From Deltaproteobacteria bacterium (lineage in GTDB: Bacteria; Myxococcota_A; Bradymonadia; REDH01), in NCBI GenBank assembly GCA_007693585.1, contig REDH01000075.1:1-64000 (forward strand): a stretch of DNA of 64,000 bases, given 5' to 3'. A program made the translations under genes and the position numbers. Of this stretch, positions 29,645-46,794 are shown one piece after another. Below the pieces are notes generated by a model. It was not told the DNA's origin, searched no databases, and saw only the letters and a list, made by a program, of their open reading frames with translations. The first letter of the stretch is position 1, and each line of letters opens with the position of its first letter.

Positions 29645-32328
29645 TGTTCCTGCGCTTTCCTCATCTCGGGGTCTCCGCGTTCGCCGCGTGTCTGGTCCTC
29701 GTTCCGCCTGTGACCGCATCGGCCCAGTCGGTAGGCGATCTGCGCTCTTCCGTGGAGCGAGTCGAGGGCATCATCGCGGACATGGCGACGTTCGATGAAC
29801 GCTTTCTCGGTGATCTCTACATCGATCGGGCACGAGACTTCGAGCGCCGGATGGTGGAGGGACGGCTCCTGGTCGACCTCGAGCAGCATGATGCCGCGGC
29901 CATCCTGCTGATGGACCTGTTCGAAGACCCCCGGCATCGTGAGCGTCCGGAGCGCACGGAGCTGCAGCGCCTGCTGGCGGACAGCCTGTACGCATCGGGG
30001 GTGCATGATCTTGCGGTGCTGCATTACCGGGCGCTGTTGTACGAGCGAGATGCGGAGCTTCAGGTGCATGCGGGTCAGCGCCTGCTGGACATCGCCCTCC
30101 GAACGGGGCGCGTCGACCGTCTGCCGGAGACTCTCCGTGTGCTTGAGGAGGCCCTTCAGGGTCGGGACGCCGACGACGAGCTCAACTATCTGCGTGGCCG
30201 GGCGCTCTTCCACACCGGGGAGCGCCAGGCCGCCCTTCGGGCGTTCGATACCGTTCGCGGGAGCAGTTCGCTGGCAGAACGAGCATCCTACTTCGCAGCC
30301 GTCGTCGAGGCGGCGCTGGGGGACCACGAGGCTGCCCTGAGTCGGTTCCGCGATCAGTTCACGCGTCTCGCAGACGCCGGCGATGAATTGGCCAGAGAAC
30401 TCCGCAACCTTGCGGCACTCGGTGCGGCGAGGGTTCTCTACGAGCAGGGGAACTGGACCGGCGCACTGGGATTCTACGGTCGCGTGGATGCGGATTCGCG
30501 GCACTTCGACCGAGCGCTCTACGAGAGCAGCTGGACGATGATTCGCCTGGATCGCTTGCCGCAGGCCAGTCGCGATCTGGAGATTCTGGCTCTCACCGCA
30601 CTGGACAGCCGAGTTCGGCCCGAGGCGCTGCTGCTGCGGGGCGAGACGGAGCTGCGGCGTGGCGAGTTCGACTCGGCTGTTGCCGTCTTCGAGGAAGTCA
30701 GGGCGGCCTATGAGCCGATCGAGGACGAGGTGCGAGACGCCATGGGTCTTCTCCAGCGCCGCGTGCGGGAGGAGGGGGTGACCATCGAGGGCTTGCGGAT
30801 TCGACGCATCCTGTCGCCCCGCGCGCGCGACTGGCTGGATCGGGGGCGGGGGTCGGCCTCCCTGCTCGAAGACCTGGAGGACCTTCAGGCGGAGTTGCTG
30901 TTTCAGGTACAGCTCGTCGAGGACCTGAACGAAGCGCTGGCGCTCGATCGGCAGATCGCGGGATTTCCCATCCTGCGGAACGGCTGGAACCTCGCGCTGC
31001 AGTACCGAATGGAACTCGTGGCCATGGAGTCGTCGTTTCTCGACATGGAGCGCGATGCGCTCTGGGATCGACTGTCCGATGAAGAAAGGACGCGCTATCG
31101 AAGCATTCGCAACCAAAGGGTGATGCTGGCCCGCCAGGTGCAACGTCTGCCCAGCACAGCCCGGGCGATGGGGGAGCGAGAGGAACAGCGTGCGGCGCGA
31201 ATCCGAGGCGCCGAGCAGGAACTCTTCCTTGCCATGCAGGAGCTGGAGGCCGATTCGGCCAGGCTCGATGCGATCGAGCAACTCGTGCGCGACGCACAGC
31301 GCCGCGGGGAGCCAATGGAGGACGAGGAACGGATTTTCGGGAACCTGGAGGTGTCACGCCAACGCGCTGCCGCCAGGATGGAAGTTGCGGAAGATCTGCG
31401 TCGACGACTCTCCCGCCTGCGTGCCGAGGCGCTCGGTGGAGGAAGCCTTACCCCGGATGAACGAGCCGCGCTCGACGCGTACGAGACGGTCGTTCTCGAG
31501 GAGCGTACCTTTCTTCAGCAGTACCGTTCCCGAGTGAGAGGATTGTCACCTGTCGACCCGGGGCGAGGCGACGCATCCGGGCGCGTTGCCCGCCTGCAGG
31601 CCGAAGGCGTCCTCGTGCGACGGGACCTGCGACAGCTACTGGACGAGATCGGACCGATCGAAGCCGCCCTGGATGACGAGCAGTCGCTCACGGAGAGCGA
31701 GCGCTCCCGAGCCCGCGCCGAGCTTGATCGATTGCGGGCCGACCTCGCTGCGCTGCTCGAACGGCTCGACGACGAGGTGGTGGCAAGGCTTCAGCGCGAG
31801 GAGGCAGCTCTCGGTGACGTCGTGGACGAGAGCGAACACGAACGCACCGCGAGGGTGGAAGAAATGGTCGATGATCTGATCCTGCTGGAGCGCGGCGCGC
31901 TGACCGCGGCCGAGATCGAACGTCGAAGGGAACTGCTTGGGCGGATCGACGAGGCCCGGGCCCGTCGTGATGTGGCAGAGCGCCAGGTGGCGGGGTTCTT
32001 CGCCGCCGCACAGGCGGTCGTGGCTGCTGAAGGTGATCGACTGCGGATCGCGCTCGATGCAGCCACCGATGAAGTGATCGCCCTTCAGGAGCAGTACGTG
32101 GTCACGGAAGCCGTGGCGCGACGCGCGGCGCTCGATCAGGCGCTCCTCGCCCTGGCTGGGGTGCGAGACCGCTTCGCCGATATCAACCTTCGGGCGAACC
32201 TGGGCGTGCTGGACGTCTCATGGCGCGAGTTCGAGGAAGCCACAACCGAGCGTCGGAATGTCACACAGGAGCGAATACGTTCACTCAATGTGCTTCGCGC
32301 CGACTTCGAAGAGATTCTTGGGGAGTAG
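29644..32328 (+). CDS. Secreted TPR/coiled-coil protein (Glt-like periplasmic component)
   Basis: Signal peptide ending ASAQ; TPR-like helical repeats in N-half (e.g. LNYLRGRALFHTGERQAALRAFDTV, PEALLLRGETELRRGEFDSAVAVFEEVRAAY); coiled-coil C-half. Confidence 0.75.
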   Translation: MFLRFPHLGVSAFAACLVLVPPVTASAQSVGDLRSSVERVEGIIADMATFDERFLGDLYIDRARDFERRMVEGRLLVDLEQHDAAAILLMDLFEDPRHRERPERTELQRLLADSLYASGVHDLAVLHYRALLYERDAELQVHAGQRLLDIALRTGRVDRLPETLRVLEEALQGRDADDELNYLRGRALFHTGERQAALRAFDTVRGSSSLAERASYFAAVVEAALGDHEAALSRFRDQFTRLADAGDELARELRNLAALGAARVLYEQGNWTGALGFYGRVDADSRHFDRALYESSWTMIRLDRLPQASRDLEILALTALDSRVRPEALLLRGETELRRGEFDSAVAVFEEVRAAYEPIEDEVRDAMGLLQRRVREEGVTIEGLRIRRILSPRARDWLDRGRGSASLLEDLEDLQAELLFQVQLVEDLNEALALDRQIAGFPILRNGWNLALQYRMELVAMESSFLDMERDALWDRLSDEERTRYRSIRNQRVMLARQVQRLPSTARAMGEREEQRAARIRGAEQELFLAMQELEADSARLDAIEQLVRDAQRRGEPMEDEERIFGNLEVSRQRAAARMEVAEDLRRRLSRLRAEALGGGSLTPDERAALDAYETVVLEERTFLQQYRSRVRGLSPVDPGRGDASGRVARLQAEGVLVRRDLRQLLDEIGPIEAALDDEQSLTESERSRARAELDRLRADLAALLERLDDEVVARLQREEAALGDVVDESEHERTARVEEMVDDLILLERGALTAAEIERRRELLGRIDEARARRDVAERQVAGFFAAAQAVVAAEGDRLRIALDAATDEVIALQEQYVVTEAVARRAALDQALLALAGVRDRFADINLRANLGVLDVSWREFEEATTERRNVTQERIRSLNVLRADFEEILGE

Positions 32329-32333
32329 CTGCG

Positions 32334-35300
32334 ATGCGGATTCCCGAATGCTTTCAGTCCCGTCTGACGGACACGCTGCGCTCGGCGACGCTTGTGCTGT
32401 CGATCCTGCTCGCACATGGGGCGGTGGCGCTCGCCGGCGACGTACCCGACAACCCCGGCGACATGGAAGCGATGCGTCAAGGGGCTGCCGATGAGGACAC
32501 GTCAGCCGATGAAGAGGGAGACGACGAATCCGCGTCCAGCGAAGATCGGGACGAGGAAGTTGGGGGGGGGCTTTCACGTTCGCTGCCGAGGGCGAGCGGA
32601 CTATCGGCACGCGGCCGTGTGGAGCTCGGGCGATACGAGGAAGCGTTGCGCCTCTACTCCGATCAGTTCGAAGCGTTCCGCGAAGCCGTGGCTCGCGTCG
32701 TGCAGGAGGAGTACGAGCGACAGGTGCGGGTGATTGACGAGCGGCTTCAGCCTCGCATGGAGGAAGCGCGGAACCGGGAGACAAGGCACCGGCGGGACGC
32801 AATTGCTTCGTTCAGCCAGTTTGCGGAGCGATATCCGGATCATCCCGAATTTACAGGTGACGTTCTCTTCCGCCTCGCTCGACTCCAGAACGAGGAGGAG
32901 CAATACCTCCACATTCAGGCACTGAACGCGTACGACGAGCAGCAGCGGCGGTACGAGCTCGGCATGATTCCGGAACCGCCGACCTTTCCCATGCTGGAAC
33001 ATGTGGACAGCCTTGCCACACTCTCTCGATTGCTGGAGACCTTTCCGGAATACCGTTACGCGGACGCGGCCCTCTACCTGCTTGCAATCGGCCAGCAGGA
33101 CGAGGAACTGGGCATGGCCTACTATGAGCGACTGATCCGGGAACGGCCCGACTCGGAGTTTGTCCAGGAGAGCTGGCTGCGAATCGGAGAACTTCTGTTC
33201 GATCTTGAACGGTTCCGAGACGCTCGCGAAGCATACCAGGAAGCGCTCGCCCTCGGCCCGTTCAACCGTACCGACCTCACTCTCTTCAAGCTCGGGTGGA
33301 CGAACTATCTCCTCAACGACTTCGGGTCTGCCCTGGAGAACTTTCACGATCTGCTCGTGCTGTATCAGGGAGACGAAGAAGCGGCATCGGTGCTGGAAGA
33401 GGCACGTCAGTACTACGCAATCGTTCTTGCCGAGCGCGACTGGAACCTCGATGGTCAGGTGGACGAGGACTTTCTCATGCCGCGTGTGCGGCACTATCTG
33501 TCGGGAGACGCAGGCTACGAACTGCCGGTTCTTGACGTCATGGCGGAGTTGCTCAGGGAACTCGAACCGCGCGAAGAGTACCTGCTTCACACCTCGGATG
33601 TCATGGCATTTGCGGTCGCGAACTTCCCGCTCGATCGGGATACACCATCGCGCCATCTGCTGGTGTACGAGATTCTCTACGCGCTGGACTATGAGGAGGA
33701 GGCCGTGGCGGTCCTCGCCGAGATTGCGGCAAACTACGGTCCCGACAGCGATTGGTTCCTTGCCATGGAGCTTCAGGGAGAGATCGAGGCCATGGCGTTC
33801 GCCGAGCGACTCGGCCGTGAAGCCATGCTGAACAGCGCGGCGATCGCATTCTTTCGTGGCCGAACCCATCGGGACGAGTACGAACTGTCAGGCGATGCGA
33901 CCCTCGACGAGCGTGCTGTCGCATCCTTTCGGCAGGCGGCAGAGATCTACGGCGACTTTCTGAGCAGTTTTCCGAATGACGAAGCGGTCTACGAATCGCG
34001 ATTCTTTCGGGCACGCGCACTCCATGAGGCACGACTGTACGAGGACGCCGTGGAGGAGTATGCCCGGGTTCGGGACTCCCGGTTGAGCGAGGCGCATCAG
34101 GAGGAGAGCGCAGCGCGACACATCGAGGCTCTCACGGCCCTTGCGCAGCAGGAGGTCCTGGCCGGGCTTCTCGACCCGAGGGGCGTCCCGGATCAGCCCA
34201 GCGAATGGCCCCGGCCGCTCGACGAAGGCGAAATCCCGGAGCCGGAGTCCATTCCCGACCGACTCCGGCAATTGCTCGCTTCGTACGACCGCTACATCGA
34301 GCTCGACGTCACGGTAGAGGACAGCCCCGAAGTTCAGGGCGAGGTCGCCCTCGCTGCCGCGCGAATCCTCCTGGAGTACGAACACAACCGTGAGGCGCGC
34401 CAGCGCTTCGTGCAGATGTTCGACCGGTACTGCGGCGAACGCCCGGCGGGCATTGCCGCGCTACTCCTGATTCAGTCGTACGAACGGGAGGGTGATTACC
34501 GACACATGGAGTACTGGGCGAATCAGGTCGAGACCAGGTCGGACTGCATTTCACTGCCAGGTGACGATGCACAGCGCTTCGCGGAGAATATCGACATCTA
34601 CCGACGCAATGCTGCGTTCGCGAATGCGGAGAGACTGCGGGAGGCCGGGCGCTACGAAGCCGCAGCGCGTGAGTTCACACGAATCGCAGAGGCCTATCCG
34701 GAGTCCGATGATGCGCCGATCGGGCTCTATTTCGCCGGTGAGATCTACGAGGAGGAACTCCGACGATATGACCTCGCCATGGAGCGCTTCCGCACGCTGT
34801 ACGAGCGCTATCCCGACACGCGATTCGCAGAGCCCGCTCTCCTCAGCCTTGCCATCAACTCGCAACAGTTCTTCGACTTCGATGGTGCGATTGCAGCCTT
34901 TCGTGAACTGCATACGCGCGGCTTCACCCTGCCCGCGGAAGGGGGAGGGCCCCGTTACCCCATCCTTGTGGCTGCCGAGATGCACGAAGTTCAGCGACAG
35001 CATGATCAGGCGGCAGAGGCTTACCTGATGTTCGTGGACGACAACCCCCGGGCACCGGAAGCGCCCCGTGCACTGTACAGGGCCGCCGTGAACCTCGATG
35101 AGTCGGGTCGACAGCGTGAGATGGCAGACCTGATCGAGCGACTGATTCGTGAGCACGGAACACAGTCCGAAGTCGGCGGCTTCAACATCGACAACGCAGT
35201 CATCGATGGACTGGCGCGCGTGGCCGCATGGCATGGTGCACGCAACGACGCTCGGAATCTACGTCGCTTCGAGGACCGCGTTCTCAATGAATTCGAAGGC

Positions 35301-36041
35301 CGTGTGCCGCGTGATTGGGAGACCCCGGAGGAGCTGGCCCGAAACGCTCCTGCCCGGCGCGCGGCGGCCGACATCGCGATGCGACGTGCCCAGGAGTCGG
35401 TCGCCGAGTGGAGGCGTATCTCCGTCAGCAGCAATCCCCGCGCCGCACAGCGAGACATCGAACGAAAGAGGGATGGTCTCGCCACGGCGATTCAGGAGTT
35501 CGTGGACGTGGATCGATTGTTCAATGATCCGGACGCCAGCATCTGCGCCCGGCTCGAACAGGGACGGGTCGCGCGCGAAATGGCGGACTTCATCTTCGAT
35601 CTTCCGGTGCCCGACTTTCAGGGGGACATCTACGCGGAGGACGCGTACATGGAAATCATCGAGGACATCGTCCGACAGTATGAGGAAGTTGCTCTCGCCG
35701 AATGGCTGGAGCTGTACAACCTCATCGAGGAGATGGGCGTCGTGAACGACTGTACCATCGAAGCCTCGACCCTCCTGAATCAACGGTTCGGCGCCGAGTA
35801 CCCTGCCTACAAGCAGCGAATGCGTCCAGCCAGCTCCCGCGTGCTCTTTCCGGGGCTCATCAACGTGCCGGTAGGCGTTTCGGTCCGTGCCAGCCATGCA
35901 CCAACGCCCGACACGAATCTCGACGATATTCCGGCGCGCACCGATGCGTCTGGTCGGGACGAGGAAGCTTCGGAGCCGCCCGGTGCGAGCGAGACCGAAG
36001 TTCGTGCCGCGCCGAACGAGGAGGAGCCGGAGGATGAGTGA
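32334..36041 (+). CDS. Large (about 1235 aa) secreted TPR protein, GltD/AgmU-like
   Basis: Signal peptide; many TPR-like repeats (QFAERYPDHPEFTGDVLFRLARL, YYERLIRERPDSEFVQESWLRIGELLFDLERFRDAREAYQEAL, PIGLYFAGEIYEEELRRYDLAMERFRTLYERYPDTRFAEPALL); position upstream of channel genes. Confidence 0.75.
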   Translation: MRIPECFQSRLTDTLRSATLVLSILLAHGAVALAGDVPDNPGDMEAMRQGAADEDTSADEEGDDESASSEDRDEEVGGGLSRSLPRASGLSARGRVELGRYEEALRLYSDQFEAFREAVARVVQEEYERQVRVIDERLQPRMEEARNRETRHRRDAIASFSQFAERYPDHPEFTGDVLFRLARLQNEEEQYLHIQALNAYDEQQRRYELGMIPEPPTFPMLEHVDSLATLSRLLETFPEYRYADAALYLLAIGQQDEELGMAYYERLIRERPDSEFVQESWLRIGELLFDLERFRDAREAYQEALALGPFNRTDLTLFKLGWTNYLLNDFGSALENFHDLLVLYQGDEEAASVLEEARQYYAIVLAERDWNLDGQVDEDFLMPRVRHYLSGDAGYELPVLDVMAELLRELEPREEYLLHTSDVMAFAVANFPLDRDTPSRHLLVYEILYALDYEEEAVAVLAEIAANYGPDSDWFLAMELQGEIEAMAFAERLGREAMLNSAAIAFFRGRTHRDEYELSGDATLDERAVASFRQAAEIYGDFLSSFPNDEAVYESRFFRARALHEARLYEDAVEEYARVRDSRLSEAHQEESAARHIEALTALAQQEVLAGLLDPRGVPDQPSEWPRPLDEGEIPEPESIPDRLRQLLASYDRYIELDVTVEDSPEVQGEVALAAARILLEYEHNREARQRFVQMFDRYCGERPAGIAALLLIQSYEREGDYRHMEYWANQVETRSDCISLPGDDAQRFAENIDIYRRNAAFANAERLREAGRYEAAAREFTRIAEAYPESDDAPIGLYFAGEIYEEELRRYDLAMERFRTLYERYPDTRFAEPALLSLAINSQQFFDFDGAIAAFRELHTRGFTLPAEGGGPRYPILVAAEMHEVQRQHDQAAEAYLMFVDDNPRAPEAPRALYRAAVNLDESGRQREMADLIERLIREHGTQSEVGGFNIDNAVIDGLARVAAWHGARNDARNLRRFEDRVLNEFEGRVPRDWETPEELARNAPARRAAADIAMRRAQESVAEWRRISVSSNPRAAQRDIERKRDGLATAIQEFVDVDRLFNDPDASICARLEQGRVAREMADFIFDLPVPDFQGDIYAEDAYMEIIEDIVRQYEEVALAEWLELYNLIEEMGVVNDCTIEASTLLNQRFGAEYPAYKQRMRPASSRVLFPGLINVPVGVSVRASHAPTPDTNLDDIPARTDASGRDEEASEPPGASETEVRAAPNEEEPEDE

Positions 36042-37488
36042 CTCTGCGGGACATGTGTTTTTCGCCCGAGGTGTGCTGCTGAGCTTCTGCCTCATGACGG
36101 CATGGGGATGCGCTGCGGGACATCAGCAGGCAACTGCAGACCCCTCCGATGGCATTGCAGTGACCCCCCAGCAGCGCCCGAATCCGGAGCTGGTCCACTC
36201 CATCTGGGACGAGGACGCCGTGGCGTTCGAGCCCGATGAGGAACGACCCGCTGTCGACGAAGCTGCCGACGATGACGACGATCTTCTCGATGTCGAACTG
36301 GAAGAGGAGTTTGCGGACGTACTCCCGCCCGAAGAGGAGCCGGAGACCGAGGAGCCCTGGGACGCGCGAGCGCTTGAGGCCTTCGCCGCAGCACGCGCCG
36401 ATGTACTCGGCTCTCGCTATTCGAACGCGCGACGAACGCTCCAGACATTTCTGGACCACGAAGACCGGCGTGTCCGTTCACTGGCGCAGCACAACCTTGG
36501 CGTGGTGGCATGGTACGAGGGAGACCATGTGTCCGCCGAGAGCGCGTTCAGACGCGCCATGGACGAAGACCCAGGCCAGGCCGCACCGCTGAGAGCGTTG
36601 GTGAGGCTGTATCTCGCGGACGGACAGCACGACCATGCACGGTCTCTGGTACGCGAGCAGGTGACCCTCTCGGAAGAAGCGGCCTCGATTCGAGCCGTGG
36701 AGCTCCTGCTCCTGCTGGAAGAGGGACGCGATCAGGAAGTGGAGGAGCTGTCCCGTGCACTCCTTCTCGAAGATGGAGCCAACCTGGATATCTTTGAGGC
36801 CCTTGCCTTCACACAGCTCAACGCCCAGCGACTTCCGCTTGCGGAGTATATCGCGGAGCAGGGACTCGAACGCGACGAGACACGAACCGAGCTGTGGTAC
36901 GTGAGGGCAGTGACGGCAATGGAAAGAGGCGACAATCTGACCGCAATCCGCCATCTGGAAACGGCTCGGGAGCGCGGAGCAAACACGCGACAGCCCGAGC
37001 TGCTGAATCTGCTGGGCGTACTCTACCTCCGAACGCTACGCTGGGAGGATGCACAACGTGTTCTCGAGGAAGCCACGAGAGCTGCTCCCAGCTACGCCGA
37101 CGCCTGGGTCAACCTTGGAAATGCGCATGTAGGCTTGCGTGACTATGATGCAGCTCTCGTCGCGTATACGAGAGGACGTGATCTTGGCCTCGAAGGGGGC
37201 GGTCCACTGTTCAACCTGGGCCTCCTGTACATGGAACCCGGCTGGGAGCACATGGAACGCATCGCGCAGCTTCGAGAGGCAATCGAATTCTTTGATCGAT
37301 TCGCTGCGGAGCGTGGCGACATTCCCGAGTCACATCTTGTGCACGAGTACCGACGTGAAGCGCTGGCCGCAATTGAGGGAATGGAAGCGCTCGCGCGCCC
37401 ACGAGAGCAGCCTGTCGAGCCGGTGTGCGACGACCCGTTCGGCTGCGACGATGAGCCGGTGTGCGACGACCCGTTCGGCTGCGACTGA
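36034..37488 (+). CDS. TPR lipoprotein, GltE/AglT-like, with duplicated Cys-containing C-terminal motif
   Basis: Lipobox WGCAAG; TPR ELLNLLGVLYLRTLRWEDAQRVLEEATRAAPSYADAWVNLGNAHVGLRDYDAALVAYTRG; ends EPVCDDPFGCDDEPVCDDPFGCD; 8-nt overlap with preceding gene. Confidence 0.8.
   Translation: MSDSAGHVFFARGVLLSFCLMTAWGCAAGHQQATADPSDGIAVTPQQRPNPELVHSIWDEDAVAFEPDEERPAVDEAADDDDDLLDVELEEEFADVLPPEEEPETEEPWDARALEAFAAARADVLGSRYSNARRTLQTFLDHEDRRVRSLAQHNLGVVAWYEGDHVSAESAFRRAMDEDPGQAAPLRALVRLYLADGQHDHARSLVREQVTLSEEAASIRAVELLLLLEEGRDQEVEELSRALLLEDGANLDIFEALAFTQLNAQRLPLAEYIAEQGLERDETRTELWYVRAVTAMERGDNLTAIRHLETARERGANTRQPELLNLLGVLYLRTLRWEDAQRVLEEATRAAPSYADAWVNLGNAHVGLRDYDAALVAYTRGRDLGLEGGGPLFNLGLLYMEPGWEHMERIAQLREAIEFFDRFAAERGDIPESHLVHEYRREALAAIEGMEALARPREQPVEPVCDDPFGCDDEPVCDDPFGCD
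37417..37488 (+). repeat. Two-copy 36-bp in-frame tandem repeat (EPVCDDPFGCD[D])
   Basis: GAGCCGGTGTGCGACGACCCGTTCGGCTGCGA(C) at 37417 and again at 37453. Confidence 0.95.
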
Positions 37489-37514
37489 TCCGCGACACCT
37501 GACAGGAGACTGCC

Positions 37515-37793
37515 ATGAATGGCGCTGACGAAGTGGGCAGAGATCGTTTCGCGGGGTGGGGCAAGAGTGTTGCCTGCGCGTTTCTCGGCGTCGGGTTGCT
37601 GGCACTTGCCTCTGTCGAGGCCGTGGCTCAGTCAGGCGTCATTCGGCTGGAAGAGGAGGTATTCGAGGTGGAGATCGAAACCCCGACGGCCACGCTCTTT
37701 CTGGCACCGCATGCGCTGGAGTATCGATTCCGCGAGCCGGTAGACTCCTTTATGGATGCTCTTCTCGAAACCGTGGAAGACGAGCCGTTTTGA
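37515..37793 (+). CDS. Small secreted protein (92 aa), unknown function
   Basis: Signal peptide (FLGVGLLALASVEAVAQ) and about 50 aa mature part IRLEEEVFEVEIETPTATLFLAPHALEYRFREPVDSFMDALLETVEDEPF. Confidence 0.7.
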   Translation: MNGADEVGRDRFAGWGKSVACAFLGVGLLALASVEAVAQSGVIRLEEEVFEVEIETPTATLFLAPHALEYRFREPVDSFMDALLETVEDEPF

Positions 37794-38030
37794 CGGCTTG
37801 CGCGGGGTGCTGGGTGCAGCGGTCGAATTGCTGGCCACCCTGCACGCACTGTGATAGACCGACCGACGCAAAGGCGCTTCCGTTGGTCTCCAACGAAGTG
37901 TGAGAGGCGCTTCCGGCATTGCGCACGGAACGCATGACGTAACGAGGGGAATGATGTGGTCCCTTGCGCCAGTGAATGACTGGTGCCGCATCATTTCCGG
38001 GAAGCCACCCCACGCAGGAGAGAGTCGAAC

Positions 38031-38675
38031 ATGGGAACCATCGCTGAAGCATTTCGGGTTAGTGGCATCTGGATGTATCTCATCCTGGTGATCTCGATCT
38101 TCGCGCTCGGCATTGTGCTCGAGCGGTTCATCTTCCTGTTCTTCAAGTACAACATCAACGCCTTGGCATTCATGCGGCAGATCGAGAAGCTCGTCATGGC
38201 GGGCAACATCGACCGTGCGCTGAAGCTCTGCAGTGCTGCGCAGGATGCCGCACTTCCGAAGGTTGTGAAGGCGGGTCTCATGCGTGCTCGGAAGAGCAAG
38301 GAGTCCATCCAGAACGCCATCGAGGAAGCGACACTCGAAGTGATTCCGCTGGTGACGCGTCGCACGCCTGCGCTGCTTGCACTCGCGAATATCGCCACTC
38401 TCCTTGGTCTGCTGGGTACCATCGTCGGTCTGATCGATGCGTTCGCGGCCCTGGAGAACGCAGCTCCGGAAGAGCGTCAGCAGCTTCTGGCGCGTGGTAT
38501 CTCGCTCGCGATGTACACGACGGCCGCTGGTCTCATCGTGGCGATTCCGACGATGCTCTTCCATCTGTTCCTGAGCGGAATGACGAAGAAGATCGTCGAG
38601 GAGATCGACCAGAACGCCGTCAAGATCGAGAACCTGTTGGTTGCCCAGGCGCGCGGTACGGCCGCCGCGGAGTGA
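38031..38675 (+). CDS. MotA/TolQ/ExbB proton channel family protein (AglR-like)
   Basis: ILVISIFALGIVLERFIFLFFKYNIN...RKSKESIQNAIEEATLEVIPLVTRRTPALLALANIATLLGLLGTIVGLIDAFAAL...SLAMYTTAAGLIVAIPTMLFHLFL. Confidence 0.93.
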   Translation: MGTIAEAFRVSGIWMYLILVISIFALGIVLERFIFLFFKYNINALAFMRQIEKLVMAGNIDRALKLCSAAQDAALPKVVKAGLMRARKSKESIQNAIEEATLEVIPLVTRRTPALLALANIATLLGLLGTIVGLIDAFAALENAAPEERQQLLARGISLAMYTTAAGLIVAIPTMLFHLFLSGMTKKIVEEIDQNAVKIENLLVAQARGTAAAE

Positions 38676-38787
38676 CTTCCGGTGCTGGAGGGCTCGGTCT
38701 GCGACTGAATGCAGGCTGAGCCCATTTTTCGGAACTCCGCGCACGAAAAGTTGTCCCTGTCTGAGCAGGGACGCCCGAGGAGGAGCC

Positions 38788-39576
38788 ATGGCGAAGCGAC
38801 GCAGGAAAGATGTGGTGGATGAGGTCCAGGATCTGAACCTGGCGCCGATCATGAACATGGTCATGATTCTCATTCCACTGCTGCTTCTCTCCACCGAGTT
38901 CATGAAGGCCGGTGTGGTCAACATCAGCTCGCCGCGACAGGCACAGGCGACGCAGGCTGACAGCGAGGAACAGGAAGAAGAGGATCCGGTGCCCCGAGTA
39001 CTGATCGCGATTTCCAGTGATGGTTTTCGTGTGATGGACCAGCGCAACCTTCCGGACTTCGCTGGCTTCACGACGCCGATCGAGCGATGTGGCGGCGCAG
39101 CCGCGGCGGGTGGAGAGGAGACGCCGGCGGGTGGGTCGCCCCACGCGCGAGCAGAGACCCTTCCGCCGACGATTTGCTTGCGCACGGAGTCGTCCGATGG
39201 TGACGCGCTGCTCGACCGGCTGGATTACGCCTCGCTCTACAATCACCTTGCGACCATCCGGCTTCAACCGCAGTGGTACGACCGGTTCTCCGAGGAGAAC
39301 AATGACGTGATCAGCCTGCTCGCCAGCCCCGAGGTGGATTTCGCGTCGCTGATGAAGACCATGGATACCGTCCGGTTCTTCCTGAGGCCCGAGGGTACGG
39401 ATCCAGGTGAGCCAAGTGGCGGAGCGAACATAGACGCGTTTCTGTTGGGGGGAGGCGGCGAGCCGACGCTCGAGCAGCTCGAGAACGCAACGTATCTCAC
39501 CGGAGGCGAGGACGGCCCGTACCGGTTCCGACTGTTTCCCGACCCAGTGCTGATGTTGCCGCGTGCAGGTGGCTGA
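38788..39576 (+). CDS. ExbD/TolR-like stator protein 1; TM helix has Asn where Asp is expected; long extra-TM region
   Basis: KRRRKDVVDEVQDLNLAPIMNMVMILIPLLLLSTEFMKAGVVNISSPRQAQ, single N-terminal TM. Confidence 0.8.
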   Translation: MAKRRRKDVVDEVQDLNLAPIMNMVMILIPLLLLSTEFMKAGVVNISSPRQAQATQADSEEQEEEDPVPRVLIAISSDGFRVMDQRNLPDFAGFTTPIERCGGAAAAGGEETPAGGSPHARAETLPPTICLRTESSDGDALLDRLDYASLYNHLATIRLQPQWYDRFSEENNDVISLLASPEVDFASLMKTMDTVRFFLRPEGTDPGEPSGGANIDAFLLGGGGEPTLEQLENATYLTGGEDGPYRFRLFPDPVLMLPRAGG

Positions 39577-39648
39577 CACGCCCGACAGCACGGGTTCGAA
39601 GGAGAATGCTGCGCCAATCTGGCGGGCTTGAAGCAGGAGTAGGTAGCA

Positions 39649-40254
39649 ATGTCTGACATTATCAGCGGACCGCAGCAGGATCAGGATGACGCGCTGGATG
39701 CGGACAAGAAGGCGAAACGCGCCGCTCGTTCCGCTTCAAGGCGCGACGACGGTGGTGGTGGGCTGAACATCAACTCGATGATGGACATGATGACCATTAT
39801 CCTGGTGTTCCTTCTGAAGAGTTACAGTACCGAGCCCATCCAGATCAATCAGAGCGAGGACCTCCGACTTCCCTGGTCAACCACGGAGTTGGCGCCCGAG
39901 GACACGATGACCATCACGCTCACGAAGACGAGTGTCCTTGTGAATGACGAGCTTGTGGTTGCGGTCAACGATGATGGTCGAATCGACCCATCGCATCTGC
40001 AGTCCGCCGATTCGCCACTGATCCCCAATCTTCAGCAGAAGATCGAGGACGAGCTTGAGGTAGCCGCCCGAAATCGGCTTCGAGGTTCAGGCGATGTCCA
40101 GCGCGTGGTGACCATCATTGCGGATTCTGATGTGCGTTACGAACTCCTGACTCAGGTGATGATCACGGCGTCTGCGGCGCAGGTGCAGAACTTCAAATTT
40201 GCGGGAATTCAGCGCGAACAGGGATCAGGTCTGCTGCAGGCGGCTGCGCCCTGA
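39649..40254 (+). CDS. ExbD/TolR-like stator protein 2 (AglS/AglQ-like) with TM Asp
   Basis: GGGLNINSMMDMMTIILVFLLKSYSTEPIQINQSEDLRLP...VTIIADSDVRYELLTQVMITASAAQVQNFKFA. Confidence 0.9.
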   Translation: MSDIISGPQQDQDDALDADKKAKRAARSASRRDDGGGGLNINSMMDMMTIILVFLLKSYSTEPIQINQSEDLRLPWSTTELAPEDTMTITLTKTSVLVNDELVVAVNDDGRIDPSHLQSADSPLIPNLQQKIEDELEVAARNRLRGSGDVQRVVTIIADSDVRYELLTQVMITASAAQVQNFKFAGIQREQGSGLLQAAAP

Positions 40255-40356
40255 GTTCTGCCCGGGAGGGTGCGCCGCCACAACTGTGCAGGCAGGCGGA
40301 GTAGGAAGATGGAATTGACCCCGCACGTTTCTGGAAGACCGTAGCCTGGTGTAGCG

Positions 40357-41727
40357 ATGGCGACACAGTCCGGACAGAAGATTCTCCGAGTAGGTGTGAT
40401 TCAGAACGATCGGGTGATCGAGGAACGAATCTTCCGCACTCGTGAGTCCGTGACGATCGGTCAGGGGTTCCAGAACACGCTGGTCGTCCCGCTGGCCGAG
40501 GCGCCGAAGTCCTTCACGCTCTTCGATGTGCGCGGCGGGAAGTACTACCTGTGCTTCACGCCCGAGATGAGCGGCCGAGTGGCATCGGGAGCGTCCGCCA
40601 CTTCCCTGGCCGAACTTCGTTCGAGTGGAAAGGCCACGGTGTCCGGAAAGGCGGCGATGGTCGAGCTGCCGGAGAATGGACGGGGCAAGGTCACCCTTGG
40701 GGAAGTGACGTTCCTGTTCCAGTTCGTGAATCCACCTCCACTCCGCGTCCTTCCGCAGCTTCCCGCGAACATGCGCGGGGGAATGCTTCAGTTTCTCTCG
40801 ACGATCATGGGTTTGAGCGGCGCCTATCTCTGGGCATTGCTCTTCTCGTTCATCGTGCAGTTTGGAGCTGCGCTCTACCTGGTTCTGCTTGTCCCGCCGC
40901 CACCGCGCCCTCGCAGCATTGATGAAATGTCGAGCCGCTTCGTGCGGGCTGTGGAGCTTCCAGAGCAGCAGGAACAGGAGCCCGACGAGTCGGAGCCGGA
41001 TGACTCCGCCGAGCTCGTGCCGGAGGCGGCACCCGAGCCCGAACCAACGCGGGAGCGGGAGCCTGAGCCGGAACCGTCGGTCGAACGACGTCCGTCGGAG
41101 ACCCGGGAGGAAGCCATGCGAGTGGTGGAACAGACTGCGATCGGCGCTGCCTTTGTAGCCGACGGTGGCATTGATCTGGGACTTTCCGCGGTAGATCGAA
41201 CGGGCCAGCGTGACCTTTCCGAGGTGCTGGCCGGCGGAAATATCGGAGGGTCCGAGCCCGGGCTGGCGAGCAATCTCGGTGCCCGTCCAGGGATCGATCC
41301 CGGTCAACGGCCGGCGACAGGGAGCAACATCGACACCAGCTCAACGGGACCGGCCGTCGCGACAGGGCCTGCCGACTCCGGGCCGAGTCGACCCACCGGG
41401 TCCATTCGTGCAGGCGGCTTCGAAACGGCCGGGACCGGTTCACTCGATCGGGACAACATCAACGGGGTGCTTCGTCGCGCGAATCGACAGATCGAGTCGT
41501 GCTATCAGCGCGCACTCGGAAACAACCCGAGTCTTGCCGGACGAATGGAGGTGCGTTTCGAGATCGGTGGCGATGGTCGAGTGGCCAGCGTGCGGATTCC
41601 GAGCCACAATCTTGGACGAGAAGTGCAGTCGTGCATCGAGGGTGTTTTTCGCGGTCTGAGGTTCCGTGCGCCCGACGGCGGATCGGTCTGGGTGCAGCGG
41701 CCGTACGTCTTTTCGTCCGGACGCTAG
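40357..41727 (+). CDS. FHA-like/TM/Pro-Glu-rich linker/AgmX-PglI C-terminal domain protein (GltG/GltJ-like)
   Basis: N-term ILRVGVIQNDRVIEERIFRTRESVTIGQGFQNTLVVPL; TM GAYLWALLFSFIVQFGAALYLVLLV; C-term RRANRQIESCYQRALGNNPSLAGRMEVRFEIGGDGRVASVRIPSHNLGREVQSCIEGVFRGLRF. Confidence 0.88.
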   Translation: MATQSGQKILRVGVIQNDRVIEERIFRTRESVTIGQGFQNTLVVPLAEAPKSFTLFDVRGGKYYLCFTPEMSGRVASGASATSLAELRSSGKATVSGKAAMVELPENGRGKVTLGEVTFLFQFVNPPPLRVLPQLPANMRGGMLQFLSTIMGLSGAYLWALLFSFIVQFGAALYLVLLVPPPPRPRSIDEMSSRFVRAVELPEQQEQEPDESEPDDSAELVPEAAPEPEPTREREPEPEPSVERRPSETREEAMRVVEQTAIGAAFVADGGIDLGLSAVDRTGQRDLSEVLAGGNIGGSEPGLASNLGARPGIDPGQRPATGSNIDTSSTGPAVATGPADSGPSRPTGSIRAGGFETAGTGSLDRDNINGVLRRANRQIESCYQRALGNNPSLAGRMEVRFEIGGDGRVASVRIPSHNLGREVQSCIEGVFRGLRFRAPDGGSVWVQRPYVFSSGR

Positions 41728-41948: not shown

Positions 41949-42521
41949 ATGGCTAGTCTACGTATCTTCGTTACGGGTTCTTGGGCCGCGCTCATGCTGA
42001 TTGTGCTTTGCTCGGTGGCGTTTGCCGTCGAGGAAGAACCCGAGCAACTCTCGGACGAGGCGGTCGATGCGTTGATGGAGGAGGCCGCCGAGCTCCTCGC
42101 TGGAATCAACAGTGACGTGGAGCGGGTCGTGGCGATCGAGGGCGAAGTGCGAGGCAGCGACCCCGATCTTGCGGATTCGTGTGTTGCTCCGGTTCTGACC
42201 ACCATCCGGGCCATCGGAAGAAGCGCCCAGCAGCAAGTCGAGGCGATGTCGGGCCTGGTGCAGGACGGCCGTTCAGACCAGCTGAGCAGGGAGATGAGCT
42301 CCCTGAGCCGGCTCGCTGCGCAGGCCGCAGGAAGCAGGCAGGAGGCGGAGCGCTGTCTCGGTGAAGCCGAGGGAGTGAGTGATCCCGTGGACGGACAGAC
42401 AAGGTCCGCCGAAATCGACGAACCCCTTGATGGAGCGGATCTCGACATGGAGTTCGATGCCGTGGTTGACGACGACGTGGTTGTCGATGATCGTACGCCG
42501 GAAGCAACTCCCTTCTTCTGA
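41949..42521 (+). CDS. Secreted helical protein of unknown function with acidic C-terminus
   Basis: Signal peptide ending VAFAVEEEP; predicted helices; tail EFDAVVDDDVVVDDRTPEATPFF. Confidence 0.7.
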   Translation: MASLRIFVTGSWAALMLIVLCSVAFAVEEEPEQLSDEAVDALMEEAAELLAGINSDVERVVAIEGEVRGSDPDLADSCVAPVLTTIRAIGRSAQQQVEAMSGLVQDGRSDQLSREMSSLSRLAAQAAGSRQEAERCLGEAEGVSDPVDGQTRSAEIDEPLDGADLDMEFDAVVDDDVVVDDRTPEATPFF

Positions 42522-42522
42522 G

Positions 42523-43833
42523 ATGTCCATGATGCGTTCGTTCATGTCCACCAATCGCCGGAACCCGTCGTGTGCCTTGTCGGCACTCGCGGTGAGCGTT
42601 CTGATGGTGTCGACCTTTGCGGGAACCTCAGAGGTGGCGGCGCAGGACGGCGTGTCAGTCGGTGAGCTGCGCCTTGGCGCCGGACTCGGCGCGGGTGCAG
42701 GGTACAACAGCAATCTGTTCCTCGCCGCCGATAACAATCCCGATGGACAGGTATCGTCGGTCAGCGCCTTCGTGGAGCCACGGATCGGCCTGTCGACCAT
42801 CGAGCCGAGAAGCTACGACTTCGATCTCGAACTGTCGGCCGAATGGATGCAGTACATCAGCGAAGAAGAAGGCGAGCGGGAGCAGAGTGGACTATCATTG
42901 ACGGGACACACGGGTCTGCGACTCAATCCGATTGGGGATGTCAGCGCTGCGGCATCCTTCCGGGTAAGGCGAACGAACGACCCCGCCTATTCGGTCGACG
43001 GTTCACCGCTGCGGAACTGGCGTTTGGCACCCGGCGTGGAGGTCGGTTTCCATCCCGGTGGAATCGGGGAGTCGCGCCTCGGATTCAGCGGTTACCTGCG
43101 TGGCACGTATCGAGTCGCCCGGTTCGAAGAGCGGTCGCAGCTCGATCGAAACACCCCAGGAGTCAGTGCGCGGCTTCAGTACAATTTCCTCCCGCGAACG
43201 GCCCTCTACGTCACCGGCGGTCTGGCGCGAACGATGTACGTGGATGAGCGCGATGAGGAAGGAGGAGCGGGGGAGGATGCCCGGAGTGCCGCGCGTTCGG
43301 ACTCGACGTCGCTGAACGGTGTTCTCGGTTTCACAACAGCCTGGACGCGGTTTCTTGGAACACGTACGGCTGTAGGTTACGCAAGTATCAATCACGATGT
43401 GGGCCCCAGTGCGGCAGCGTTGACAGCCGAGGCATCGGTGATGCTGCAGCCTGTGTCCTCCCTTCGGCTGACCGCTGGATGGCGGCGAGGGCTCGAGGAT
43501 TCTCCCGTGGCGAATGCGCTCCGGTATGATGGGATTCGGCTCGAGGGAAGCTACCGGTGGAACATCGTCGAGCTCGAGGCGTATACGGGTCTTCGCTTCG
43601 TGAGACTCGATTCGTTCGTGTCCGGAGATGGAGAACTCGAGGATCGGACGGATCGATTGCTGGACGCCGGTTCGTCGCTGCGGGTGGCGGTGGCTCGAAA
43701 CGTCGGGATCGGTGTGCGCTACCGGCTGCGAAGCAGTCTGGATGAAGCGGAAGAGTTCGAGGAGGGTGTCAGTGCGCTGCCCCGCGGCTATGTGCAGCAT
43801 CTGGTCTCGGGTGGAGTGGATGTCCGGTTCTAG
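42523..43833 (+). CDS. Outer-membrane beta-barrel protein (BBP2/Wzp-like porin candidate)
   Basis: Signal peptide; GAGLGAGAGYNSNLFLAADNNPDGQVSSVSAFVEPRIGLSTIEPRSYDFDLELSAEWMQY and alternating beta strands ending in VSGGVDVRF (C-term Phe); adjacent to OPX gene. Confidence 0.8.
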   Translation: MSMMRSFMSTNRRNPSCALSALAVSVLMVSTFAGTSEVAAQDGVSVGELRLGAGLGAGAGYNSNLFLAADNNPDGQVSSVSAFVEPRIGLSTIEPRSYDFDLELSAEWMQYISEEEGEREQSGLSLTGHTGLRLNPIGDVSAAASFRVRRTNDPAYSVDGSPLRNWRLAPGVEVGFHPGGIGESRLGFSGYLRGTYRVARFEERSQLDRNTPGVSARLQYNFLPRTALYVTGGLARTMYVDERDEEGGAGEDARSAARSDSTSLNGVLGFTTAWTRFLGTRTAVGYASINHDVGPSAAALTAEASVMLQPVSSLRLTAGWRRGLEDSPVANALRYDGIRLEGSYRWNIVELEAYTGLRFVRLDSFVSGDGELEDRTDRLLDAGSSLRVAVARNVGIGVRYRLRSSLDEAEEFEEGVSALPRGYVQHLVSGGVDVRF

Positions 43834-44500
43834 CCAACGGACGTCTCCGCGAGCACAGTCGAAAGGAGGAGCGGTTGCGCTACGGAAGCAGCGCGCGCTG
43901 CTGGTCCTGTTGGTTCTGTGCGTCGTGGGATTCGCGTCTGCATGCGGTACGCGGATCAGTTCCGACTATCTCGCGCACTCGCTGGATTCGTTTCAAGGCG
44001 AGTTCTCGACTGCATTGGGTCCGGGTGATCGGTTCGAAGTCCGGGTGTTCAGGGAAGAGGAACTCTCTGGGGAGTACTCCGTTTCATCCCGTGGGATAGT
44101 CGGCTTCCCGCTTGTCGGTTCGTTTGAGGTTGCGGGCCTGAGCTGTGAAGACGTGGAAGAGATTCTGGTGGAGCGCCTGGGTGATGGGTTGATTCATGAA
44201 CCATCGGTACAGTGCAGGATCGTCGAGCAGAGATCCCTGCAGGTTCTGGTCGTCGGTTCTGTGAGTTCACCGAGGAGCATTCCCTACTCGGATTCGCTCA
44301 CGATTGTGGAAGCGATTGCGTTGGCGGGGGGACTGTCGCAGAATGCGTCCGAGGACCGTGCCATTGTCACGCGGCGTGTGGACGGAGAGATGGTGGAGAT
44401 TGAGGTGCCGCTTCGGCTGGTCATGAGTGGACGGGCTCCCAACCTGCGGCTCTGGCCGAACGACCTTGTGTTCGTGCCGGCTTACCGGTTTCTGCAGTAG
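43820..44500 (+). CDS. OPX/Wza-family polysaccharide export lipoprotein (short form)
   Basis: Lipobox GFASAC; GPGDRFEVRVFREEELSGEYSVSSRGIVGFPLVGSFEVAGLSCEDVEEILVERL; SLBB-like LQVLVVGSVSSPRSIPYSDSLTIVEAIALAGGLSQNAS. Confidence 0.88.
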   Translation: MSGSSQRTSPRAQSKGGAVALRKQRALLVLLVLCVVGFASACGTRISSDYLAHSLDSFQGEFSTALGPGDRFEVRVFREEELSGEYSVSSRGIVGFPLVGSFEVAGLSCEDVEEILVERLGDGLIHEPSVQCRIVEQRSLQVLVVGSVSSPRSIPYSDSLTIVEAIALAGGLSQNASEDRAIVTRRVDGEMVEIEVPLRLVMSGRAPNLRLWPNDLVFVPAYRFLQ

Positions 44501-44550
44501 AACGCTCACGGTGTGGGTGGCCACGGTCCACCGGAAAGGAACAGGGAGCC

Positions 44551-46794
44551 ATGGAAGCTGGGGAGCGTCGAGAGTCTAGTGCGGGGGACCGGAACGCCGA
44601 TGGTTCGGTGGCGGCGGTCCAGTTCTGGATCGGCCTTCTGTGGAGACACGCCTGGGCCATGCTCGCGGTGTTCGTGGTCGTGTCTGCCGGAGGGTACTGG
44701 TACACCATGCAACAGCCGAATGTCTATCAGGCTTCGGCAACGGTACTTGTGTCGCCCGAAGGCGATCAGGTTCGCGCGCTGAGTCCTTTCGGAGATGGAG
44801 CGGCTCCACAGGGGAGCAGCTTCATGGCCAACAGGATCCAGTTCGCCATGCAGGAGCATCTGCTGCGGAGTCCCGAGCTTCTGGACGAGGTCGCCGAGAG
44901 GCTATCGTTGCGGAGTAGCCCATCATTCCTCGGTCTCTTCGGTGACGAAGCCACACCAGACGCGATTGTGGAACGATCGGCAGTTGCAAATCCGGCGATC
45001 ATGCTCCGCGGAATGCTGCGCGTGAACGCGGATGATGAGCGAAGAGTGGTGCAGATTACGATGTCCTCCCGGGATCCTGTTCTGGCCGCGGACGTGGTGA
45101 ACGCTGTGGCGGAGGCTCACGTGGAGAGGAACCTCCTGCGCCAGCTCGAGGCCACGGATCAGGCGCTGGACTGGTTGATGGAGCAGAGCGCAAGCCTTCG
45201 CTCCTCATTGGAGAACGCCGAGCTTGCGCAGTTGGACTATCTGCGTGACCAGGGAACGCTTTCGGTCGCGCTCGACGATAGGCGGAACCTGAGCGTGCGC
45301 GCCGTGGAGGAGTTGAGCACTCAGCTGGCGAACGCAAGACTGGAGGTGGACAGGCTGGGTTCGGTCGTGCGGCAGATTCGCACGTACGACTCACTGGATG
45401 ATCTGCTTGCGGCGAATATTCCGGAAATACTGGATAACAGCATGATTCAGTCCTTCAAGGGTCAACTGGTGGCTCTGGACGAGAGGGACCTGGAACTGCG
45501 CGAGCGCTACGGTGAGCTGTGGCCTGAGCGACGCGCGGTACTCGCAAGAAGGGAGATGCTGGAGAATGTCCTTGAGCGGGAGATCCAGAACGTTCTTCGT
45601 TCATACGTCCAGCGTTTCGAGACGGCACAGCTTCTCGAGCGTACGGTGGCCGAGCGGCTGTCCAGCGCGCAACGGGATGTTTTGCGAAGTGGAGAGAACG
45701 AAATTGCATTCAACGCGCTCCGTCGTGAAGCGGAGACGAATCGCGAGCTCTTTGGAGTGATGGAGCGCCGGCTGAAGGAGATCGAGCTTCACCGCATGTT
45801 GCAGCACAACAACCTCAGTGTGCTGGAGTCCGCAGTCGTCCCCGTCGTTCCCGTTCGGCCGCGAAGGGCAGTGTATTTTCTCGCGACACTGTTGCTTGCG
45901 GGTGTTCTGTCCCTTGGAACCGCTCTTGCGCTGGAGTTTCTGGATCAGAGCGTCAAGCCCGATACCGACTTCGACCGCGAGTTCGGACTTGGACTCCTCG
46001 GAATGTTGCCGGAGATCTCTGCAGGCAAGGGGCGTCGAGGGAGTTCGCGTGGTCCGGCCAAGGGCCAGGAGTTCAACCCCGACATCTTCGTTCACAGCTT
46101 TCCACGTTCCGGAATGGCGGAAGCGTGTCGGTCCATCCGTACCAACCTCTTGTTCATGGACCGTGAGGACACGCTGAAGCGAATGCTGGTAACGTCCAGC
46201 GGACCGCGCGAAGGGAAGACGCTGACATCGGTCAGCCTCGCTACGGTGTTCGCGCAGTCCGGGAACCGCACGGTGCTTGTGGATGCGGACATGCGCAAGC
46301 CAAGACTCGGAAGGGTGTTCGGGGTCGATGATGCAGGTCGAGGTCTGGTCAATGTGTTGGTGGGAGAGTGCACGCTTGATGAGGCGCTCGTGGAAACCGA
46401 GGTGCCGGGCCTCTTCTTGCTTCCGTGCGGTTCGGTACCTCCGAATCCGGTCGAGATTCTGCACTCGGTGGCCTTCGGCCGCTTGCAGGACGAGCTGGAC
46501 GAACGATTCGATCGAGTGCTTTTCGACACGCCTCCTGTCGGTCCGGTGACGGATGCGCGTGTCCTCTCCGGGAGGGTGGGCGGCGTTGTTCTTGTCGCGC
46601 GCGCGTCGCATACGAACAAGGATGCGTTCGCGCGCGCGATCGATGACCTTGACGCAGTCAAGGCCAATCTCCTCGGCATTGTGCTGAACAGCGTGAACTT
46701 CGAGAAGCGGTCAACGGGAGGTGGGTACTACCGGTACTACTATCAGCAGTACAACCAGTACTATGGGGATGCGGAGGAGTCAGCGAGCAGCTAG
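44551..46794 (+). CDS. Wzc-like polysaccharide co-polymerase with BY-kinase domain and Tyr-rich tail
   Basis: Wzz N-domain; Walker A SSGPREGKT, A' VLVDADMRKPRLG, B RVLFDTPPVG; tail GGGYYRYYYQQYNQYYGDAEE. Confidence 0.93.
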   Translation: MEAGERRESSAGDRNADGSVAAVQFWIGLLWRHAWAMLAVFVVVSAGGYWYTMQQPNVYQASATVLVSPEGDQVRALSPFGDGAAPQGSSFMANRIQFAMQEHLLRSPELLDEVAERLSLRSSPSFLGLFGDEATPDAIVERSAVANPAIMLRGMLRVNADDERRVVQITMSSRDPVLAADVVNAVAEAHVERNLLRQLEATDQALDWLMEQSASLRSSLENAELAQLDYLRDQGTLSVALDDRRNLSVRAVEELSTQLANARLEVDRLGSVVRQIRTYDSLDDLLAANIPEILDNSMIQSFKGQLVALDERDLELRERYGELWPERRAVLARREMLENVLEREIQNVLRSYVQRFETAQLLERTVAERLSSAQRDVLRSGENEIAFNALRREAETNRELFGVMERRLKEIELHRMLQHNNLSVLESAVVPVVPVRPRRAVYFLATLLLAGVLSLGTALALEFLDQSVKPDTDFDREFGLGLLGMLPEISAGKGRRGSSRGPAKGQEFNPDIFVHSFPRSGMAEACRSIRTNLLFMDREDTLKRMLVTSSGPREGKTLTSVSLATVFAQSGNRTVLVDADMRKPRLGRVFGVDDAGRGLVNVLVGECTLDEALVETEVPGLFLLPCGSVPPNPVEILHSVAFGRLQDELDERFDRVLFDTPPVGPVTDARVLSGRVGGVVLVARASHTNKDAFARAIDDLDAVKANLLGIVLNSVNFEKRSTGGGYYRYYYQQYNQYYGDAEESASS

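Follow-up and report, generated by a model that had tools for sequence, protein, structure and literature searches.

The window, a 64,000-nt stretch of Deltaproteobacteria bacterium contig REDH01000075.1, encodes a stator operon in which one ring protein is followed by two different ExbD-type proteins, D1 and D2, and only D2 carries the proton-carrying Asp of this family; D1 has Asn at that position. This variant of a known motor type is real and conserved, and its consequence is unexpected and testable. D1 and D2 are paired within the operon and match AglQ and AglS, respectively, and the class of residue in D1 covaries with the ring protein across loci. On balance, we favour the reading that these genes encode a stator of the AglRQS kind, probably with a mixed D1–D2 axle and one proton site, working a Glt-type load.

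The genes from 32220 to 41727 lie on the forward strand. Upstream of the motor genes are a large TPR protein (32220–36041, start uncertain), which matches TPR_6 and YbgF profiles and is a possible GltD/GltC counterpart, and a second, weakly GltE-like TPR protein (35887–37488, start uncertain, perhaps 36001; 47.3 bits with NF033758 GltE, under the cut-off of 225); both are neighbours kept in many loci. The ExbB/TolQ/AglR-type ring subunit (38031–38675; Pfam MotA_ExbB, 91.4 bits) is followed by D1 (38788–39576), D2 (39649–40254) and a GltG/AgmX-like protein (40357–41727) with a hydrophobic segment and a TonB-like C-terminal domain. This last protein would be the expected force-transmitting partner. 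It scores 77.5 bits with NCBIfam NF033768, a C-terminal domain model with a cut-off of 40, and 103.9 bits with GltG NF033760, under the equivalog cut-off of 650; because only the C-terminal domain model was passed, we infer the identity of the load. Directly downstream (41949–46794) are genes for a small predicted protein, a BBP2_2-type outer-membrane barrel, a Wza-type polysaccharide export protein and a Wzc-type kinase. Polysaccharide export genes adjoining a Glt/Agl-type motor are reminiscent of the Nfs–Exo link in Myxococcus xanthus, and they are absent from most other loci in the limited flanks inspected.

D1 and D2 both pass the Pfam ExbD model (PF02472, cut-off 25.4 bits), at 27.5 and 39.9 bits, respectively. 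The D2 membrane helix reads LNINSMMDMMTIILVFLL, with Asp46 (codon GAC, 39784–39786) at the proton site, the only proton-carrying Asp of the pair; the D1 helix reads LNLAPIMNMVMILIPLLLLSTEF. Profile alignment to solved ExbD chains sets D1 ‘lnLapimNlv’ over ‘inVtpfiDvm’, which places Asn23 (codon AAC, 38854–38856) on ExbD Asp25, the position of AglQ Asp28, and MAFFT with Escherichia coli ExbD and TolR returns the same placement. The preliminary description had reported Asn in D1 where the proton-carrying Asp is expected, next to a normal pattern in D2, and both observations are borne out, as are the two reading frames. As aligned, D1 is homologous to the ExbD/TolR family and yet lacks its proton-carrying Asp. 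A sequencing or start-site error as the source of Asn23 was rejected, since many assemblies have the same residue. The three other ExbD-like proteins found in the window’s genome all have Asp at the proton site, so the change in D1 is confined to this operon.

Beyond the proton site, D1 has a proline, Pro30 (codon CCA, 38875–38877), at position +7 from Asn23. The helix had been described as free of any other acidic residue; the predicted helix spans residues 19–42 and does include Glu37 (in STEF), but this residue lies 14 residues from Asn23 on the periplasmic side and is not conserved, with Val, Lys and others in relatives. An unusually long region after the membrane segment had also been described, and here the alignment gives a different picture. 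The segment concerned, NNDVISLL...FFLRPEG, aligns with the usual periplasmic domain of ExbD (approximately chain residues 93–123 in the profile alignment), and the extra length of D1 is a loop at about residues 86–145, preceding the periplasmic domain and variable among orthologues. The domain is covered by the sequence profile, and a Foldseek search with a D1 model returned ExbD/TolR domains as its best, weak match (E = 0.66).

To place this pair among its relatives, we compared 151 loci with the same ExbB–D1–D2 genes, taken from the matches listed after removal of near-duplicates. D2 has Asp at the proton site in every locus (151/151), whereas D1 has Asp in 58 and lacks an acid in the other 93 (85 with Asn, 5 with Ser, 2 with Ala and 1 with Cys). 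Two E. coli reference rows are left out of these numbers; counting them gives 153 rows and 60 with Asp in D1. Proportions in this set describe a sample of best matches rather than a census, and within it the contrast between D1, without an acid in 93 of 151 loci, and the always acidic D2 is far from chance. The gene order, mostly with a GltG/AgmX-like gene next, was read in 29 relatives and in most of 80 loci from named assemblies among the matches listed for a ring-protein query, a search in which the D1 residue therefore played no part. Phylum-wide searches gave a D1-like match in 307 of 379 genomes, with further loci from best matches.

Non-acidic D1 proteins occur in assemblies titled Myxococcota, KSB1, Calditrichota, Nitrospinota, Sumerlaeota and Bacteroidota, among them those of the cultivable Nannocystis and Plesiocystis; with other phyla represented, by record title, a lineage-specific oddity was rejected. 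An acidic D1 is found in Bdellovibrionota-type loci, in several other Myxococcota and in one genus of the window’s own family. The asymmetry between D1 and D2 is real, old and conserved, but because relatives exist with Asp in D1 it is not essential to this type of machine. The preliminary description had named a variable Asn position among functional homologues as evidence against its reading, and such variation is in part seen: Asp stands there in Bdellovibrionota, several Myxococcota and the sister genus, and Ser, Ala or Cys elsewhere. Asn as a specific requirement was accordingly rejected; since Ser, Ala and Cys occur at the same site, the trait that is kept is the absence of an acid.

Several loci in the sample have features of their own. 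Both loci with Ala at the D1 proton site (L182 and L187; SPIMALLVILIPMLL) are otherwise unchanged in pattern, and in L182 the ExbB residue that corresponds to E. coli Glu176 is Lys. The same Lys is present in eight loci in which D1 and D2 both have Asp (L080, L090, L093, L094, L098, L099, L108 and L110), mostly titled Bacteriovoracaceae, and amounts to a charge reversal in the channel helix. In L057, D1 can be read only as a 105-residue fragment without the helix, between an intact ExbB and D2; a frameshift or an assembly error is possible.

The state of the D1 proton site goes together with a second residue in D1 and with the ring. The proline seven residues on from the proton site is present in 91 of the 93 non-acidic D1 proteins and in none of the 58 acidic ones. 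In E. coli numbering, ExbB Pro190 is found in all 93 loci with a non-acidic D1 against 4 of the 58 with an acidic D1, and ExbB Glu176 shows the reverse (1/93 against 38/58). Alignment of the window’s ring subunit to E. coli ExbB gives Pro173 (codon 38547–38549) for Pro190 and Leu159 (codon 38505–38507) for Glu176. When 211 ExbB columns are ranked by mutual information with D1 class, 190 comes first, 176 second and 186 third, all in helix 3, in a ranking that ignores the relatedness of loci although all columns share one tree. D1 positions 25 and 32 covary with ExbB 190 and 176 more than other columns do. The equivalents of ExbB Thr148 and Thr181 (Thr130 and Thr164 in the window) are kept in all complete ExbB sequences read; the ExbB threonines and the ExbD Asp are the channel residues in solved relatives (PMC12965293). 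That D1 covaries with a channel-lining helix of ExbB fits a non-carrying D1 seated in the ExbB pentamer.

These associations were placed on a tree built by a quick search from ExbB and D2, leaving out D1 and ExbB columns 176 and 190. On this tree, in which several deep branches are weakly supported, D1 acidity changed at least five times. Averaged over sets of five independent pairs, the D1 proline changed along with D1 acidity in 4.8 and Pro190 in 3.6, and loss of Glu176 went with loss of D1 acidity in 2.1; for all three, pairs in the opposite direction averaged none. The median sign-test p is 0.0625 for the D1 proline and 0.125 for Pro190, values that cannot reach significance with only five independent transitions.

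A sister genus of four members (g2, L008–L011), placed on the tree inside the window’s family beside two Asn genera, has Asp in D1, has lost the D1 proline and has Val at ExbB 190; the Glu176 position is still replaced, by Met. We read this genus as a natural reversal of the loss of the D1 acid. Its D1 helix (LNLxAMIDMMT) resembles that of its own neighbouring D2, which makes gene conversion from D2 to D1 a possible origin of the Asp. Around ATGATCGACATGATGAC the two genes are alike in protein and in DNA, a DNA likeness that codon use alone could explain.

The closest known counterpart is AglRQS, the motor of M. xanthus gliding and sporulation, which combines a single ring protein with two distinct ExbD/TolR-like proteins, in the gene order R–Q–S, and the window’s operon also encodes a GltG/AgmX-like partner. 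In a Myxococcaceae assembly (L097), a reverse-strand set in ring–Q–S order contains a first ExbD-like protein (157 residues from the likely start) that scores 51 bits with the D1 profile and 9.5 with the D2 profile, and a second that scores 54 bits with the D2 profile and 8 with the D1 profile. In the first, residue 28 is Asp, which matches the numbering of AglQ Asp28, and this set is probably the AglRQS genes proper. Profile scores and gene order in L097 thus make D1 the counterpart of AglQ and D2 that of AglS. The comparison with AglQ and AglS suggested in the preliminary description calls for a correction: AglQ and AglS both carry Asp, according to a review (PMC9389320), whereas the window’s D1 has Asn as wild type, another residue takes the place of the ring Glu and the D1 helix contains an additional proline. 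The window’s motor departs from AglRQS and is no copy of it.

Other relatives share parts of this arrangement. The core complex of Luciano et al. 2011 (PMC3169522) likewise combines TPR proteins, an AglRQS-like motor and a GltG-like protein, which here stand in one operon, but the text consulted contains no residue-level asymmetry. The 5:2 stators TolQR and ExbBD share the ExbB and ExbD families, by Pfam, and the channel threonines, but they use a single kind of ExbD protein, so that both helices carry Asp, and their ring has Glu176 and Pro190. Ton systems with two ExbD genes beside one ExbB, such as that of Xanthomonas (ExbD1/ExbD2), were compared by gene set and context: they resemble the window in having two ExbD genes with one ExbB and differ in their setting, which is TonB-dependent uptake. 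A search of passages from open-access papers gave no report of a one-Asp mixed stator.

In the arrangement we propose, a proton-driven ExbB/AglR pentamer would surround a dimer of ExbD-like helices and act on an envelope-spanning Glt-type complex via the GltG/AgmX-like protein. The dimer would most likely be mixed, one D1 with one D2, and proton uptake and release would occur at D2 Asp46 alone. D1 would be a non-carrying axle helix, permanently neutral and resembling a protonated Asp, much as MotB D22N mimics the protonated state (PMC9389320). The ring would be adapted to such an axle by a hydrophobic residue in place of ExbB Glu176, with Pro190 kept, and D1 by its proline about two turns from the lost proton site. 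The preliminary description had suggested a heteromeric stator with one conducting subunit type; the conserved asymmetry and the D1–ExbB covariation lend this partial support, and the mixed D1–D2 dimer would be its likely form.

If the motor rotates as modelled for its relatives, one proton would pass per D2 passage only, and with one proton site in two, rotation like that of other 5:2 motors would take some 5 protons per turn where those take 10. The review cited above states that 5 ions per turn would call for a new model, and it treats mixed AglQ–AglS dimers as an unsettled question (PMC9389320). Engineered AglQ D28N abolishes proton conductance and paralyses the gliding and sporulation machines of M. 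xanthus (PMC3858216), though AglS keeps its Asp, so a one-site motor would need compensation; the covariation suggests that it may have one. More tentatively, and with somewhat less confidence than we would need to assert it, these loci may form a widespread stator class whose mixed axle has a single proton-carrying Asp and spends about five protons on each turn. The second helix would then permanently take the place of the protonated state, in a naturally evolved half-site 5:2 motor stabilised by matched ring changes.

D1–D1 and D2–D2 homodimers could form instead of the mixed dimer. It is unlikely, though still a serious contender, that D2 homodimers are the proton-driven motor and that D1–D1 or D1–D2 dimers in the same ring are non-conducting and throttle or switch off part of the motors. 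The D2 Asp is invariant and self-pairing is feasible, and covariation of D1 with ExbB helix 3 would be expected if D1 enters the ring at all. An exchangeable pool of inactive subunits would also be expected to include D1-like genes outside the operon, all non-acidic, and such orphans exist (L215–L219, L221:2877-3515, L222:2891-3568 and L223:6359-7315): each carries Asn in place of the Asp and has neither an ExbB nor a D2 gene next to it. They occur in Nannocystis, Plesiocystis and three assemblies of the window’s class, and Nannocystis, Plesiocystis and G053 have an orphan as well as a full operon. A strict one-to-one presence of D1 and D2 genes is thereby rejected, and the orphans suggest that D1-like subunits may be exchanged. 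But in the operon the D1 and D2 genes are adjacent and in fixed order, and D1 matches AglQ by gene order and profile, a protein that, with AglR and AglS, M. xanthus requires for sporulation and motility (PMC3858216). In L222 and L223, the orphan genes adjoin large proteins with a Glucodextran_B-like domain.

The orphan copies would also suit a D1 that has kept the ExbD fold and works outside the channel, as an anchor or adaptor in its own right for peptidoglycan or the GltG-like protein, and the periplasmic part of D1 is bigger and more variable than that of D2. We regard this as improbable: the membrane helix is among the most conserved parts of D1, and covariation of D1 25 and 32 with ExbB 190 and 176 is unexpected for a helix outside the ring. 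There is still less to recommend a D1 that aids proton transport by way of a different residue, or of water near Asn, Ser or Cys, which would leave the motor with two sites. Those three residues are polar and Glu37 lies near the periplasmic end of the window’s D1 helix, but Ala occupies the site in L182 and L187, the D1 helix has no other conserved acidic residue, and ExbB Glu176, the other buried acid, is missing in 92 of 93 loci. That D1 is a decaying or irrelevant duplicate is hardly credible, for although decay commonly shows itself in a lost catalytic residue, D1 is conserved across the sample and six phylum titles (Myxococcota to Bacteroidota), its helix motif strongly so, and dN/dS is low in most calculable close pairs (0.03–0.12 in four, 0.5 in a fifth).

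The proposed mixed D1–D2 stator bears on how motors of this type are understood. Current 5:2 models assume a pair of equivalent Asp sites and ten ions for each turn. The lineage described here, to which the cultivable Nannocystis and Plesiocystis belong, is a natural case in which one of the two proteins lacks an acid at that site, with accompanying changes in the ring. A change lethal to the motor when engineered into AglQ (D28N) is wild type in this lineage. If D1 and D2 share a ring, its two helices come from different genes and each could be mutated alone, which is impossible in symmetric stators, and the natural variants (Asn, Ser, Ala and Cys, with Asp in the sister genus) are ready test material. 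Nature may, in these bacteria, run a version of the motor with one proton site.
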